A DNA stretch of 64,000 nucleotides from Aurantiochytrium sp. KH105. Its lineage: Eukaryota; Sar; Bigyra; Thraustochytrida; Thraustochytriidae. Positions 55,727-63,815 of the stretch are shown piece by piece. The DNA lies in contig BGKB01000010.1 in NCBI GenBank assembly GCA_003116975.1, positions 434,001-498,000 of the forward strand, in the 5' to 3' direction. The translations under genes and the position numbers were made by a program. The notes below the pieces were generated by a model, which was given only the letters and a program-made list of their open reading frames with translations, was not told where the DNA came from and did not search any database. Position 1 is the first letter of the stretch; every line of letters starts with the position of its first letter.

Positions 55727-55737
55727 GAAAGAAAGAA

Positions 55738-55789
<52 letters not shown>

Positions 55790-55790
55790 A
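55727..55790. repeat. (AAAG)n microsatellite
   Basis: About 16 purine-only tetranucleotide units. Confidence 0.95.
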
Positions 55791-56202: not shown

Positions 56203-59200
56203 ATGCAGACGGGCGCAGCGCGCGGCGCGCGGGGCGCGGACGCGCGGGCGCTGGAGCGCTGGGCGGCGAGCATGGCCGCGGTGCCCGTGGCGCTGATGCG
56301 GCTCGACGCGGTGCCCGGCGCGGGGCTCGCGGGGCTCCGCGTGCGCGCCGCCAACGCGTGCGCGGAGAAGCTGCTCGGGAGCTGCGTTGTGGACTCCGCG
56401 CTCGTGGAGATCGTCGAGCTCGACGCCGCGGCGCGCAAGGAGGTCGCCGCGTGGCTAGAGTGTGACCGGCACGCGCCCTCCTCTGCAGGGAAACACCGTC
56501 AGCAACAGGGCGCTGCCGGGGACGAGGCAGAGGACGAGGACTACGGCGGCGTCGACTCGCCCTCCACGGACGCAGCCGGTCTGGAGGAGCGGAAAGATAT
56601 CTCCGACGAAGAACAGGCCGCAGAGGGGTCCATCACGGCCGCCAAGTCGAGGGAGAGCCTCCCGGCGTCCGCCAACCCCGGACCATCCTCAGAAGTCTGC
56701 TCGGACTCGGAAGAGTACAGAGAAATTAACTTGGCAGGCTTTGTCGATGCTGCGAGGCGGCAGCAGCAACAGCAAGACAAACAAGGAGACCATCTCCACA
56801 ATCAGCACCACCACCAGCATCCTCCCCGGTTGCAAAAGGATTTTCAAGGCGCTGTCAACATTCGCATCAGTCGGGACAGCCCCAGCGAGTTCACCGCCGT
56901 GCTGATGGAGGTCCCGGATGAAACCCCCTCGCGGCCATCGTCGCCAAGCGCCACTTCGTCTGCTGTGCGCTCAGAGGCTGTCGAGCGCCTTCTGTCATCT
57001 ATGCCAAACCCCGTCATTACCGCGACAAACGACATGGTCATCACATACGCGAATCCCTGCGCTGAAGAGGTCTTTGGGTACGACACGGGCGAGCTCGTGG
57101 GACAAAAGGTGAACGTGCTTATGGGCAAGTCCGACAGAGAGCAGCACGATAAGTACGTCGATCGCTATCAGACCACAGGCCAGGCGCGGATCATCGGACG
57201 AGACCCGCGGCCCATCGTCGGCACGCGAAAAGATGGAAGCGAACTACGTCTCCTGCTCACGGTCAACCGCCACGCGACCTTTGACGGCTACTGCGCGGTT
57301 TTTGTCGATGCCACGCGTGAGTTTCTTTTGGAGAGTCACACGCAACGCATCCTTACATCGGTTGCCACACCGGTCGTGCGCGTCAACAAACTCATGAAGA
57401 TCACCTTTGTCAACAACAATGCCCTCGAAACATTCGGCTACAAACATGACGAGCTTCTCGGGAAGTCCGTCAACATCCTCATGACCACCCGTGACAGAGA
57501 TTCTCACGACTCCTACGTTGACAGATACAGACGAACAGGCAAGGGCCGCATCATCGGTCAGAAACCGCGTCTTGTAAACGGCCAGACCCGCGAGGGTCTC
57601 CCGCTCAAACTCTACCTCACCGTCACCCAGGATGCCGTGGGCGACGGCTTTTGCGCTGTCTTTACGAACGTTACCCGCGAGGTGGAGCTCGCGGAACGCA
57701 CCTCGCGGATCCTCAGCTCCATGGCCTCGCCCGTCGTTCGCGCAGACAAATCCATGTGCATCACATATGTAAATCCGAACGCGGAAGATGTCTTTGGCTA
57801 CGAAGCGGGCGAGCTCCTCGGTCAAAACGTCATGGTCCTCATGCTTCCCAAAGATGCCGACAATCACGACAACATTATTGCGCGCTTCCACCGAACCGGT
57901 GTCAGCAGGGTCATTAACCGGAGCCCTCGCCTTGTCGACGGAAAACGCAAGGATGGTTCCACTTTGCGCCTCTACATCACCATCACCTGCGACGGCGACG
58001 ATGGGTATACTGCCTGTTTCACTGACGTGACGGAGGCTTTTGAGCAGCGCGAGCGAGTGGAGCGCCTCGCGTCCATGGACGCCCCTGTTCTCGTGCTCGA
58101 CCATCATCTCAACATTGACTACGTCAACAGGTCGGCAAACTCCATCTTTTGCTCGTCTTCCGATACGATTGTGGGCGCCAACATTCGATCATTTTTATGC
58201 CCGTCAAACCCTCGTGGGATCGATGGCGCCATTGAAGATCTCTTACAGACGGCCAAGCAGTCCGATAGTGACGACGTCGAAAAGGAGTGCAGCGGTCGAG
58301 CCGGATCCGTGACGTCGGGCTCACAGTTTTCCTCCGCGCATCTCTTTTCGAAATTTGGGCGGCGCAACTCGAGTCGCTCTACAGGCACTCCGCATGATGA
58401 CAGCACGGGATCTGATGTGGGTCACACTGGAGACCAGATCCTGCGCATGATTGACGAGGAGGGCAACAACCTCCTCATGCAATATCGCATTACGCAAAAC
58501 AAGCAAGGCTATACTCTGGCTCTCTTCGACGTGACCAAGGAGGTGGCCATGAGCAACCAGCTCTCCGCAATCATCCGCAATGTATCCAGCGGGGTTGTCG
58601 TCGTCGACAAGGATCTGCACATTCGCTTTGTAAACCACCATGGCCTCGCTACTCTCGGCTACCGTGCTCGCGATGTCATCAACCGTCCATTATCCATGTT
58701 CGGTCCCGATTTCAAGGACCTCACATGTTTCGGCGTGCGAAATCTCCTTACTATCTCTGAGACGGCATCTGAAGACGGCGATGAGGTTATTGCTGGCTCC
58801 AAAAGCGGCACGATTCCCCCCAATCCGCAACGTCAGACCTTTCGCGCGCTCACCAAACACGGAAACTCGGTCTTTGTCCATGTTGAATGCACCATGGCCC
58901 TCGAATACTACACGTTGGTCCTGACAGACGTGACGGAAGAGCACACGCTCATGATCAAGGTCAACAGCATGCTTGATGCCACGCCATCGCTGCTCTTCAT
59001 GTTTGGCGCCGACCCGAGCTTTCAGTCTGGTGTTCTCGAGATGGCCAAGGTTAATTCAAGAACGCCCATCGCGGAGTTGCCCCTCGGAATGGTCAGCAAG
59101 TCGTGTCGGCGCCTCTTTCAGCAACTTCCTAGCGCCTCGGGCCACAGCAAGCTTCAAGCCTTGCTCAACATCGTAGCAAGCGAAGACCGCGCCAAGGTTG

Positions 59201-60684
59201 AGCAGTGTTTGGCGAAAACCTTTGGCGAGGAGCCGGACTCGACCAACACCATGGAAGCTCGCATTAAACAGGTTCGCAAGGGCGAGCATAGTGTGGCCTG
59301 GTATGGTTTCAGCATCACCAAGTTACGGAGTGGACAGTGTTTCGTGAGTGCGCAAGACATTGGGGCCGAAGTTCAGCTTCGCGAGGAACTGCGATCCAAA
59401 CTGGTGCAGGGCAGCAGCTCGCTGGCGCAGGCTATGGCCGATAGTTCACACATTCGTCGCGTCCTGCAATACGTGGCTCACGAGTATCGCAACTTCTTCT
59501 TTGGAGCTGCGACCCTTGTCGAGGACCTGTGCGATGAGCTGCAAGGAAGCGCCATGCATGATGACATGCAGCAGATCCTGCGCATCCACAACCGCATGGG
59601 TCAACTCTTCGACGACTGCTTGCTCATGCAGAAAATTGAGGCACAAGAGTACACGTATGTGCGATCCTCCCTCAAGCTCAAGACCGTCCTCGACGATGCC
59701 GTCGCGTACGCGCAGAATCGCGACCGCAAGCGCACGCAAGAGGACGTCAACTTTCGCCCCATTCTCGGCGAGAAAGCGATCGACAGCTACATTGTCGGCT
59801 CAGCAGCGCATCTCTACCAAGCCATCACGAACCTCGTGAGTAACGCCTTCAAGTACAACTCGGCGGGCGGCGTTGTTGTCTTGGAGGCGCAAATCGAGGG
59901 TCCCGACGCCGTCATTCAGGTGCGTGATACGGGAATCGGCATTCCCGAGGCCAAGCGTGCGGTGATTTTCGAACCGTACAAACGCCTCGCCACAGGATCA
60001 CACCGTGTCGGAACAGGCCTCGGTCTGAGTTTTGCCAAAGACTTTGTCGTCAAGGGCTGCGGCGGGTCCATCAAGGTCAAGTCAAACAATGTCGAGGGCC
60101 AGGGCACCATTTTTGAGATTCGCATCCCCACTGTCCCCGCTCCAACGCAAGCACCGTCTACGCCTCCAGTCTCGCCGCAAGCCACCACGGACGAGACGAC
60201 GAACGACGTTGCTGAAGGGGCCAAGGATTCTGCCTCGACGCCTACCGTGGACGACATCGATCTGCCAAGGGACGTCGACGTCATCGTAGTTGACGATGAC
60301 GACATCATTCGTCTCACGCTCAGTCGTCGTCTCCGCAAGCTCAAGTGGCCTCTGGAAAAGCTCGGGCGGAGACTCCGCGTCATGGAGGGCGCCTTTGGCG
60401 AGGACGTCGTTCGTATGGCCCTTGAGCAGAACATGACGTTCTCGCTCATTACAATCGACCAAGACATGGGCGCGGACCACTACAGTGGGTCAGAGACGAT
60501 CCGCGTTTTGCGTGATGCTGGCTACCACGGCTCGATCGTGGGTCTCACGGGCAATGAGTCGGATGACGAGCGGCGTCAGATGCTTGTTGCGGGTGCGCAG
60601 CATGTTCTCATCAAGGGCTCCAAGGTCTTTAGTGAGATTGACAGAATTCTCCAAAAATGTCTTCTCGGCGAGGACGGGCTATGA
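56203..60684 (+). CDS. hybrid histidine kinase with five PAS domains, three FixL-like
   Basis: 1493 residues from the ATG at 56203; further upstream the frame is translated GC-rich repeat. After a disordered region come PAS domains at about 258, 380, 500, 620 and 786. The first three share the FixL core HDxY...R...RIIG...G-x-R-x-DG, with His315, His435 and His555 at the position of the FixL haem ligand. The kinase core has H-box VAHEYRN (His1093), N box NLVSNAFKY (Asn1210/1214), G1 DTGIGIP (from Asp1242) and G2 GTGLGLS (1270-1276). The receiver has the acidic pocket from Asp1364, phosphoacceptor Asp1421, Thr1449 and Lys1471. No membrane helix is evident, so it is probably a soluble sensor that passes phosphate from His1093 to Asp1421 and then to an HPt protein. 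All catalytic residues are intact. Redox, light or gas sensing is inferred. Confidence 0.94.
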   Translation: MQTGAARGARGADARALERWAASMAAVPVALMRLDAVPGAGLAGLRVRAANACAEKLLGSCVVDSALVEIVELDAAARKEVAAWLECDRHAPSSAGKHRQQQGAAGDEAEDEDYGGVDSPSTDAAGLEERKDISDEEQAAEGSITAAKSRESLPASANPGPSSEVCSDSEEYREINLAGFVDAARRQQQQQDKQGDHLHNQHHHQHPPRLQKDFQGAVNIRISRDSPSEFTAVLMEVPDETPSRPSSPSATSSAVRSEAVERLLSSMPNPVITATNDMVITYANPCAEEVFGYDTGELVGQKVNVLMGKSDREQHDKYVDRYQTTGQARIIGRDPRPIVGTRKDGSELRLLLTVNRHATFDGYCAVFVDATREFLLESHTQRILTSVATPVVRVNKLMKITFVNNNALETFGYKHDELLGKSVNILMTTRDRDSHDSYVDRYRRTGKGRIIGQKPRLVNGQTREGLPLKLYLTVTQDAVGDGFCAVFTNVTREVELAERTSRILSSMASPVVRADKSMCITYVNPNAEDVFGYEAGELLGQNVMVLMLPKDADNHDNIIARFHRTGVSRVINRSPRLVDGKRKDGSTLRLYITITCDGDDGYTACFTDVTEAFEQRERVERLASMDAPVLVLDHHLNIDYVNRSANSIFCSSSDTIVGANIRSFLCPSNPRGIDGAIEDLLQTAKQSDSDDVEKECSGRAGSVTSGSQFSSAHLFSKFGRRNSSRSTGTPHDDSTGSDVGHTGDQILRMIDEEGNNLLMQYRITQNKQGYTLALFDVTKEVAMSNQLSAIIRNVSSGVVVVDKDLHIRFVNHHGLATLGYRARDVINRPLSMFGPDFKDLTCFGVRNLLTISETASEDGDEVIAGSKSGTIPPNPQRQTFRALTKHGNSVFVHVECTMALEYYTLVLTDVTEEHTLMIKVNSMLDATPSLLFMFGADPSFQSGVLEMAKVNSRTPIAELPLGMVSKSCRRLFQQLPSASGHSKLQALLNIVASEDRAKVEQCLAKTFGEEPDSTNTMEARIKQVRKGEHSVAWYGFSITKLRSGQCFVSAQDIGAEVQLREELRSKLVQGSSSLAQAMADSSHIRRVLQYVAHEYRNFFFGAATLVEDLCDELQGSAMHDDMQQILRIHNRMGQLFDDCLLMQKIEAQEYTYVRSSLKLKTVLDDAVAYAQNRDRKRTQEDVNFRPILGEKAIDSYIVGSAAHLYQAITNLVSNAFKYNSAGGVVVLEAQIEGPDAVIQVRDTGIGIPEAKRAVIFEPYKRLATGSHRVGTGLGLSFAKDFVVKGCGGSIKVKSNNVEGQGTIFEIRIPTVPAPTQAPSTPPVSPQATTDETTNDVAEGAKDSASTPTVDDIDLPRDVDVIVVDDDDIIRLTLSRRLRKLKWPLEKLGRRLRVMEGAFGEDVVRMALEQNMTFSLITIDQDMGADHYSGSETIRVLRDAGYHGSIVGLTGNESDDERRQMLVAGAQHVLIKGSKVFSEIDRILQKCLLGEDGL

Positions 60685-60953: not shown

Positions 60954-63815
60954 TCACTCGCCAAAAAGCCTGTGGTATTGGCTCGTCGGGTCGGCGCTAA
61001 GAGCCGCGTGCGTTCCCATTTCTGCGACACCGCCACGATCCAGCAATATCACAGTATCAGCGACCAGTTGCAATGGCTCCATGCGGTCGTGGGTGATCAT
61101 GAGCACGGTCGTGCGCTTCGCCTCAAGTTTTTTTGCAATCGTCCGCTCCACAAGACGCCGCGAACTCGGGTCAAGTTGTGCTGTGGGCTCGTCGAGAATG
61201 AGAAGACGCGGTTTCCGAAGAAGCGCACGTGCCAGGACGATTCGCGCCCGCTCGCCACCGCTTAGACCAAGTCCACGCTCACCGACGCGAGTTTGATATC
61301 CACGATCGAGTTCCATGATGAAACCGTGCGCGTGAGCATCCTGCGCGGCGGTGATTACGTCACTCTCCGTGTACTCGCCCGGCGCCAGTCCGTAAGTGAT
61401 GTTTGCTAAGATCGATGATGCAAAAAGCTGAGGATCCTGAGGTACGAGACCAACATGCCTTCGGAAAGCAGACTTGTGCAAAGCAGCGAGGTCGTGTCCA
61501 TCCACTGTAATGCAACCCGTGGAAGGTCGATAGAACCCGAGCAAAAGTTTTTGCACGGTCGTTTTCCCCGCGCCATTGGTCCCGCAGAGAGCAGTAAGCG
61601 ATCCTGGCTCGAGCTGAAAGCTTACGCCGCACAGACTTGGGCGCGACGCAGATGCATACGACATGGAAACATTTTCGAATTTGACGGAACATCCCACGTC
61701 GGCATCGAGGGCGACCTCTTCATAGAGCGTCTCGCGTCGAACGCGCGCAGCCTCGAGCAAATTCGACTCAAGGGTTGACAAGAGACCAAAGACGCGCTGC
61801 GCTGCGCCTGCGGCGCGATTGAACGCGTCCATATTACTGTTGATCTCTTGGTAGGCGTTGTTGATCACATTCCAGTAAAGCATGAACTTGACAAGCTCGC
61901 CGGGGGTAAGATGCTCTGCGTACATGAGCGCCTCGTAGCCACCGAAGCCGAGAATAAGAAAGGTTCCCGTCATGCTGAGGTTTTGGGTTATGACATTGGC
62001 CAGAGCCGTGCCAAAGGCATCCTTGATTCCCTTGGCCAGAGCGTTGCCTGTAGCTTCAATGAAGCGCGCCACCTCGGCGGATTCCATGGCATGCGCCTTG
62101 ACCGTGCTTATGTTGTTGAAGGCCTCTGTTGCAATGCCATTCGCGTCCGCGATTCCGCCCCAAATCTCTCGATTCAAGCGCGTGCTCCAGCGCGAGTACA
62201 CAGACAGCAAATACGTGATAGGCACAAGACTTGTCACAGCCACGGCAGTTAATCGCCAAGAAGTAAAGAGGCAGACCCCGAGACCGCCGATCATGACAAG
62301 CATGTTGGTGAAGAGACTGACGATGACCGCGCGCCAAGGAGAGACCATTGCGTTCACGTCGTTGGTGAGGCTTGCCGTGAGACCACCAGACATGTTCTGA
62401 TCGTAGAAGGGATGTTCTTGCTGAATGAGTTTTTGGAACATGTCATTGCGCACCGAGGTGGCGACCTTGCGTCCAATGATGGAAACGCAGGTATCCCGAA
62501 CAATGCCCAAGAAAACCACCAGGAGACCGCACGCAATGAGCATGTGAATGTGGTTGTGAAACCCCTTGAGATCTTTTTCAAACACCGCATCAATAATTTG
62601 GCCCTGGAAGTTCGGAAGCCCCACCTTTGCAGCGGCGTTACCAAACACGCAAATAATTGCAACGCTGAGAAGAAGGGCATGCTGGACGATCATGTCGCGA
62701 ATCGAGGTTGACCAAAAGGAGAAACCCTTTGAAGGGGCCGGAGAAGAAGAGGCCTGTGGCGTGTTGCCGTCCGCGCCGCGCTTGTGAGGACGCACAGCCG
62801 CGCTGAAGCAGCGGCGACACACGTCAAAGTCACAGCGTTTGCAGCGATAACCGCGACCGCGAACTCTTCCCATGCAAATATCGCACGTGTTGAAAGGCAG
62901 CCGCGGCCAAAAGTAGAGCTTGTGAGGATGCAACGCCTCGAGGAGATGGCCACGATCGCGGCCGACGACATCTACGGCTCCCTTGAGCACGAAAAACTCC
63001 ACGCTTGCCACCATCATGATCCCAAAGAGAAGTGGCACCTGGACTTTGCTCCAAGCGAACTCGACGGTGATGCAGCGAATCGCCATGTAAAAGGCAATAA
63101 ACGTATCAAAGACAAAGGCAATGCCCAGGACAAGGTTGCGCGAGAATTCAGCTCGCCTGCGAACCTTGTAGGCTAGGATCTCTGGGTTTCGCAACGCCTC
63201 CGAGTGTTCGAGCTCGATGATCGAAACGTTGCGTCGCAGACCGAGAGGCTGGCGCGGGTCCGCAAGAAGTGGTCTGCGGACTTCGGCCGCGGACATATCC
63301 GCATAGGCTGCTTCGAGTCCTTGCGCCTGGATGTGGCGGTTTGCATAAGCCCATCGAACACACACAGCAAGCGCCAGGAGATTTACAAAGGTGCGACCAA
63401 TACTGAAGAGGAGCACGCCGTCAAGAATGCCAACAAATTTTGTCACGTGGCGCTTGGTAACTTGATCAAAGCAAATGCAAAGACAAAGATCCAGCGCAAG
63501 AACGATGCCGAGGAGAACTACCCGTCTCGTTCCCTCGTTCGACCGTCGAAGTCGGCTGCCTCGCTTGGCCCGGCTGCGCTGGTGCTGGTGCTGGTGCTGG
63601 TGCTCCTGTTCTTGCTGGTGCTGCTGGTGCTCTTGCTCATGACTGGGAGGCGGCGGCAAGCCAGGTCTCTGGCACTCTACGTCTTCATCGAGCTCGCCGT
63701 CGCTATCTACACTCCCCGTGCTACTGCTGTTGCTGCTCGCGCTACTTAGCTCGCTGGGCAGGGCAAAAGCCTCGCGCGCGTTTGTTGACGCCTCCGCATC
63801 GTCCTCGATTCGCAT
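60954..63815 (-). CDS. TAP-like ABCB half-transporter with a ZZ zinc finger
   Basis: 953 residues from ATG. The N-terminus is acidic, then Gln/His-rich (residues 55-80). About four hydrophobic helices (roughly 98-290) form an extra membrane domain like TMD0 of TAP and ABCB9. Then a cysteine cluster reads C311-x2-C314, YRCKRCDFDVC (C325, C328, C333) and C336, followed by His344: the ZZ-type zinc-finger pattern. The ABC membrane core follows (about 380-690; EHPFYDQNMSGGLTASLTND is the ABCB elbow/TM region). The nucleotide-binding domain has Walker A CGTNGAGKTT (about 742), Q-loop VPQDPQLF, signature LSGGERAR (about 850) and Walker B RLLILDEPTA (about 870). Such half-transporters dimerise in ER or lysosome-type membranes and often export peptides. 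The ZZ finger would lie on the cytosolic side and is unusual. Confidence 0.9.
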   Translation of the reverse strand: MRIEDDAEASTNAREAFALPSELSSASSNSSSTGSVDSDGELDEDVECQRPGLPPPPSHEQEHQQHQQEQEHQHQHQHQRSRAKRGSRLRRSNEGTRRVVLLGIVLALDLCLCICFDQVTKRHVTKFVGILDGVLLFSIGRTFVNLLALAVCVRWAYANRHIQAQGLEAAYADMSAAEVRRPLLADPRQPLGLRRNVSIIELEHSEALRNPEILAYKVRRRAEFSRNLVLGIAFVFDTFIAFYMAIRCITVEFAWSKVQVPLLFGIMMVASVEFFVLKGAVDVVGRDRGHLLEALHPHKLYFWPRLPFNTCDICMGRVRGRGYRCKRCDFDVCRRCFSAAVRPHKRGADGNTPQASSSPAPSKGFSFWSTSIRDMIVQHALLLSVAIICVFGNAAAKVGLPNFQGQIIDAVFEKDLKGFHNHIHMLIACGLLVVFLGIVRDTCVSIIGRKVATSVRNDMFQKLIQQEHPFYDQNMSGGLTASLTNDVNAMVSPWRAVIVSLFTNMLVMIGGLGVCLFTSWRLTAVAVTSLVPITYLLSVYSRWSTRLNREIWGGIADANGIATEAFNNISTVKAHAMESAEVARFIEATGNALAKGIKDAFGTALANVITQNLSMTGTFLILGFGGYEALMYAEHLTPGELVKFMLYWNVINNAYQEINSNMDAFNRAAGAAQRVFGLLSTLESNLLEAARVRRETLYEEVALDADVGCSVKFENVSMSYASASRPSLCGVSFQLEPGSLTALCGTNGAGKTTVQKLLLGFYRPSTGCITVDGHDLAALHKSAFRRHVGLVPQDPQLFASSILANITYGLAPGEYTESDVITAAQDAHAHGFIMELDRGYQTRVGERGLGLSGGERARIVLARALLRKPRLLILDEPTAQLDPSSRRLVERTIAKKLEAKRTTVLMITHDRMEPLQLVADTVILLDRGGVAEMGTHAALSADPTSQYHRLFGE

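Follow-up and report, generated by a model that had tools for sequence, protein, structure and literature searches.

A 64,000-nucleotide stretch of the genome of the thraustochytrid Aurantiochytrium sp. KH105 (contig BGKB01000010.1, positions 434,001 to 498,000), hereafter the window, contains a gene for a hybrid histidine kinase in which three PAS units resembling the haem domain of the bacterial oxygen sensor FixL follow one another (Table 1). The assignment as a hybrid histidine kinase is based on a HATPase_c and a receiver domain that each score above the respective Pfam cut-off; Pfam also reports PAS repeats in the protein. The HisKA model was not among the Pfam matches, and the motif VAHEYRN around His1093, probably the phospho-acceptor motif, was found by reading. 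According to BLASTP, 1453 of 1470 residues are identical to those of a Hondaea fermentalgiana protein (P0002) of stramenopile lineage, which bears out the eukaryotic nature of the kinase assumed in a preliminary description of this DNA. In the public Hondaea model the protein begins at our Met24 (window position 56272), so residue numbers vary with the chosen start. The kinase is probably soluble, since none of its 19-residue segments passes a simple Kyte-Doolittle test.

Table 1. Features of the hybrid histidine kinase gene in window coordinates (BjFixL, Bradyrhizobium FixL)
Feature	Position	Strand	Remarks
Hybrid histidine kinase coding sequence	56203..60684	+	ATG at 56203, stop ends at 60684; 1493 amino acids
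FixL-type PAS unit 1	56971..57330	+	residues 257-376; boundaries cut by us
His315 codon	57145..57147	+	equivalent of BjFixL His200
FixL-type PAS unit 2	57331..57690	+	residues 377-496; boundaries cut by us
His435 codon	57505..57507	+	equivalent of BjFixL His200
FixL-type PAS unit 3	57691..58050	+	residues 497-616; Ile at Tyr203 position, Asn at Gly217 position
His555 codon	57865..57867	+	equivalent of BjFixL His200
Further PAS repeats without haem-ligand His	58051..58947	+	roughly residues 617-915; limits judged by eye
His1093 in VAHEYRN, probable phospho-acceptor	59479..59481	+	read from sequence
HATPase_c domain	59803..60132	+	residues 1201-1310; Pfam E 2.2e-22
Receiver domain	60280..60621	+	residues 1360-1473; Pfam E 1.1e-07

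Three FixL-type PAS units

His315, His435 and His555 each fall on His200 of FixL and are separated by 120 residues both times. The histidine codons and the PDB alignments, which place the histidine of every unit on that of FixL (3/3), agree in this respect with the preliminary description, whose coordinates for the array (56970..58050) were right to one base. In ungapped 120-residue windows around the histidine the units share 54, 52 and 54 of 120 residues with one another, and 39 of 121 aligned columns are identical in all three. With the three units as query the top PDB matches were FixL haem domains (E 2.2e-15, aligned on unit 1). Units 2 and 3 likewise had a FixL haem domain as top match, with E 3.4e-13 and E 6.7e-12, respectively, the latter being the weakest of the three. 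Given these E-values and the curated models, chance similarity to FixL was rejected. Against the FixL NCBIfam equivalog NF041777, which has a curated whole-protein cut-off of 850 bits, the kinase scored 201.7 bits, and residues 255-396 were the best-matching stretch.

The elements RY, RIIG and DG had been described as kept, and each is indeed found in two of the three units, but unit 3 reads RF and RVIN and unit 2 has EG. Similarly, the view of the units as gapless holds for the equal histidine spacing but not in every detail: each unit has one residue more than FixL between the IIG motif and the Arg220 equivalent, placing this arginine (Arg336, Arg456 and Arg576) at His+21 instead of His+20, and the last hairpin of unit 3 is one residue shorter, a difference invisible in the His-to-His spacing. 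Unit 3 further carries Ile at the position of FixL Tyr203, Phe at Tyr207 and Asn at Gly217. The distal Arg220 of FixL contacts O2, and Leu236 and Ile238 are further distal pocket residues; Arg206 and Ile215 of BjFixL presumably correspond to Arg200 and Ile209 of Sinorhizobium FixL (SmFixL). The propionate arginine (Bj206/Sm200) is present in 3/3 units, and the distal positions read Ile/Ile/Val (Ile215), Leu/Leu/Ile (Leu236) and Val/Val/Ile (Ile238) in units 1/2/3. In SmFixL, Arg200 has been linked to a propionate of the haem and Ile209 to the binding of O2, and the Soret bands lie near 418 nm (oxy) and 434 nm (deoxy) (PMC10765370).

Sequence, curated models and predicted fold concur on three FixL-type PAS units, as initially proposed. 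In the AlphaFold model the histidine of each unit lies in helix F-alpha (3/3) and the Arg220 equivalent opens the strand that follows. In a structural comparison, the 13 best rows of the VIA-align list, which re-examines the structures picked by Foldseek only, are all FixL entries. With a predicted template modelling score (pTM) of 0.51, the model is not reliable as to how the three units are placed relative to one another. The array is followed by PAS repeats without the ligand histidine, the first of which has a long insert; the best PDB match of this stretch (residues ~617-915) reached only E 0.083.

We also looked for an adjacent FixJ-type regulator. The downstream neighbour of the kinase is an ABC transporter, and the receiver is fused to the kinase itself. 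The transporter gene (60954-63815, minus strand) encodes membrane and ATPase domains, directly preceded at the membrane domain by a match to a C1-type zinc finger (Pfam C1_2, residues 295-336), a pairing that looks unusual to us. Upstream of the kinase gene, a GAAA tandem repeat occupies positions 55735-55790.

Conservation, selection and origin of the array

Among the best 120 of 3334 matches listed for the kinase core, four stood well above the rest: P0002 (990 bits), P0003 (844), P0001 (442) and P0004 (310), with the next match at 196 bits. All four carry haem-type units in constant register, namely three in P0002 and P0003 (histidines 120 residues apart twice in both), three in P0004 (119 twice) and seven in the metagenomic protein P0001 (residues 164-872), whose units are 44-57% identical to one another and whose six His-to-His intervals are all 118. 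No relative was confirmed in scans of genome and viral sequences with the family alignment A3. Without P0002, which is almost identical to the window protein, the family comprises 16 units with pairwise identities of 40-86% (median 50%). The histidine is kept in 16/16, its column being among the 17 of 119 that do not vary; as the units share ancestry, these are not 16 independent events. At the profile position of the histidine the next PAS has I in the window protein, V in P0003, K in P0001 and N in P0004, an alignment that is weak, and this neighbouring PAS shows none of the HD...RY...IIG motif. Judged by these related sequences, the case for the three units is stronger than the preliminary description had claimed.

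Pocket residues are kept along with the histidine: 15 of the 16 family units have R or K at the Arg206 position, 15 the Arg220 equivalent, and all 16 an aliphatic residue at Ile215 as well as at Leu236 and Ile238. The joint pocket set occurs in 14/16 family units and 74/82 bacterial FixL-type units vs 4/70 other units with the histidine and 3/52 units without it; this contrast is supportive but not independent, because family units align by construction to a profile built from the family and the bacterial loci (best 80 of 537) were chosen with a FixL alignment. In the P0003 counterpart of unit 3, HE stands in place of HD and the additional loop residue is absent.

A second haplotype of the kinase is located on contig C81 (G000:C81:125600-130800, L094). 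Within the three units the haplotypes show 20 synonymous (~258 sites) vs 0 nonsynonymous (~822 sites) differences. The corresponding synonymous/nonsynonymous counts are 15/10 for the N-terminus, 29/4 for the other PAS, 16/1 for the kinase core, 2/1 for the linker and 12/0 for the receiver. The array is constrained as much as the receiver, and this constraint favours a function of the whole array, not haem in particular. Compared by eye, 13 of the 15 amino-acid differences of the C81 haplotype match the public Hondaea residue.

In the unit tree (88 of 239 detected domains, chosen by score and locus and without P0002), the 16 family units and two His-less PAS on long branches separate from the 70 other rows with a Shimodaira-Hasegawa-like approximate likelihood-ratio (SH-aLRT) support of 97, in an analysis of 118 columns with a quick search, midpoint rooting, many open forks and long-branch warnings. 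The phylogeny that had been suggested as a check thus gives the units a group of their own but does not place them inside alphaproteobacterial FixL. A direct recent transfer of a rhizobial FixL is unsupported in view of this separation. Each of the units 1, 2 and 3 of the window protein groups with the unit of the same number in P0003 (SH-aLRT 85, 98 and 96), so the array predates the split of these proteins, and a triplication private to the window species is likewise unsupported. Tandem duplication within the family, as assumed earlier, is supported by the tree and continues elsewhere too, since two P0004 units are 86% alike.

With the family profile, 172 of 308 proteins contained a domain of at least 15 bits, and seven of these have at least three consecutive His units: the window protein, P0001, P0002, P0003, P0004, P0076 and P0077. 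None of the seven carries a bacterial name, and P0001, P0003, P0004, P0076 and P0077 are without an organism name. Among 83 translated loci, 80 had a qualifying domain, and the longest run of His units was one in 78 and two in 2. Because similarity guided the choice of both samples and the flank truncated reading frames, they do not show that bacteria are devoid of longer arrays. The longest array, in P0076 (2492 residues, 403 kb contig), has thirteen consecutive His PAS units (residues 962-2463, spacing 121-129). In P0077 there are four His units, of which three are consecutive, and the TmcB repeat domain PF25474, a model not listed for P0076. Haem is less sure in these two proteins because the pocket set is far less kept (4/14 scored; 17 His units were detected and 14 passed a stricter filter).

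A candidate multi-haem gas sensor

Beyond the domain anatomy, homology, conservation and predicted fold shown above, we consider it rather likely that the gene encodes a soluble hybrid histidine kinase with three tandem FixL/DosP-type haem PAS domains making up its N-terminal half, and binding of haem by the units is likely. The kinase would most likely be a soluble multi-haem sensor of O2 or another gas, for which we infer haem occupancy, ligand, signal direction and output. Each unit would bind haem b via its F-alpha histidine (His315, His435, His555), and O2 (or NO/CO) on the other face of the haem would move the FG loop through the arginine one position past that of FixL Arg220. This change would travel along signalling helices to the kinase and must cross the His-less PAS repeats, as these stand between array and kinase. 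As a consequence, transfer of the phosphoryl group from His1093 to the fused receiver, and from there to an HPt protein, would be altered. The three units in series could act cooperatively, cover a range of O2 levels or be redundant. In FixL, a ligand at the haem reshapes the PAS dimer and the coiled coil toward the kinase (PMC13060918). An HPt match occurs at two places in the genome with the same score, and these may be two alleles; HATPase_c matches, counting every kind, number 38.

The units share with FixL of Bradyrhizobium and Sinorhizobium (PDB 1drm, 1dp6, 1d06) the PAS fold, the F-alpha histidine and the equivalents of Arg206, Ile215, Leu236 and Ile238, and both proteins have a histidine kinase output. 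However, FixL has one haem PAS, whereas the window kinase has three FixL-type units in series and then more PAS repeats before the kinase, one more residue in each FG loop, a fused receiver and a eukaryotic host. An Azospirillum kinase (L008) has two FixL-type His PAS. The next PDB sequence matches after FixL came from E. coli DosP (9cdr, 1v9y), which has a His-ligated haem PAS as well but is a c-di-GMP phosphodiesterase. Vibrio cholerae Aer2, reportedly a dual PAS-haem receptor, resembles the architecture predicted for the window kinase in having more than one haem PAS per protein; in Chlamydomonas, the FixL homologues FXL1/FXL5 are reported to contain eukaryotic FixL-type PAS that bind haem. 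The histidine of Aer2-type domains is on E-alpha, in a haem-PAS cluster unrelated to that of FixL (PMC10468136). The TmcB-type proteins P0077 and P0076 also have tandem His-bearing PAS units (4 and 13), but unlike the window kinase they have hydrophobic segments, several in P0076, and no listed kinase domain. Stramenopile kinases of oomycetes come close in published architecture, with a receiver, no transmembrane domain and long N-terminal PAS arrays; haem is unnamed in the excerpt of that description (PMC3019232). No oomycete-named row was among the matches listed (best 120 per list, many rows nameless).

Within the FixL/DosP cluster the histidine is the primary determinant of haem binding (PMC10468136). 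Several observations weigh against haem-based sensing by the array. About 40% of the cluster members lack the histidine, which ~60% carry, and human PASK PAS-A, close to this cluster and without the histidine, binds non-haem compounds (PMC10468136). Ordered by E-value, Foldseek places PpsR and DosP before FixL, whose first entry is at rank 9, and the units form their own group in the tree instead of nesting within FixL. The additional residue before the Arg220 equivalent in each unit, the absence of Tyr203 and Gly217 from unit 3, and the HE and missing extra residue in the P0003 counterpart point in the same direction. At least two His-less PAS repeats separate the array from the kinase, and haem in the units is a prediction.

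Of the three units, unit 3 is the least like FixL, and its affinity may be different or its haem may have been lost. Its substitutions at Tyr203, Tyr207 and Gly217, its FixL match as the weakest of the three and the deviating P0003 counterpart would fit an array in which haem is bound by some units only, most likely by 1 and 2, and a degenerate unit 3 is mainly a structural relay or dimer element. We regard this as unlikely; unit 3 of both the window protein and P0003 keeps the histidine, Arg206 and an arginine in the 220 region, and in the window protein unit 3 differs by 0 amino acids between the haplotypes. A further explanation, to which we give a similarly small chance, holds that the multiplied units are a scaffold, in which the length of the array determines reach or dimer length and the copies reflect redundancy rather than cooperativity. 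The serial PAS domains of Phytophthora infestans kinases, which number 10, 15 and 21 (PMC3019232), and the variation from 3 to 7 copies inside the window kinase family agree with this idea, but a pure scaffold would not require the ligand histidine in 16/16 units; a scaffold is compatible with haem binding and would not exclude it. That the units descend from haem PAS but bind another ligand or none, the histidine serving e.g. packing, metal binding or sensing of haem supply, appears distinctly improbable: PASK PAS-A offers a precedent, albeit one that has lost the histidine, and the pocket set is frequently missing from other PAS with the histidine (66/70), but the family keeps the set beyond the histidine in 14/16 units while the neighbouring His-less PAS has nothing of the motif.

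Returning to haem-based sensing, a broader proposal is tentative and somewhat unlikely as a whole: eukaryotes could have made gas sensors with several haems in series by copying a single FixL-type PAS in register, and the number of copies (3, 7, up to 13) would then set threshold, dynamic range or cooperativity. On this view the thraustochytrid family represents one line, and the protein with 13 units perhaps another that arose independently.

Implications for oxygen sensing

FixL-type PAS and PAS-array kinases, including tandem arrays in stramenopiles, are already known. What seems new, within the literature listings covered, is a family of thraustochytrid kinases with a PAS array in which the haem histidine of FixL is retained by the units. 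A search for thraustochytrid histidine kinases, eukaryotic or tandem haem PAS, FXL1/FXL5, and tiny macrocysts with PAS, with most subscription journals outside its scope, returned nothing on the window kinase. To our knowledge, O2 sensing in single-celled eukaryotes outside animals, plants and fungi is poorly known. In Aurantiochytrium the supply of dissolved oxygen alters growth, transcription and the yield of docosahexaenoic acid, with no sensor named in the abstract of that study (PMC10015696). A kinase with three well-kept haem-type units is a concrete candidate for such an O2 sensor, and homologous kinases with 3 and 7 units provide a natural series for the effect of repeating a gas sensor.
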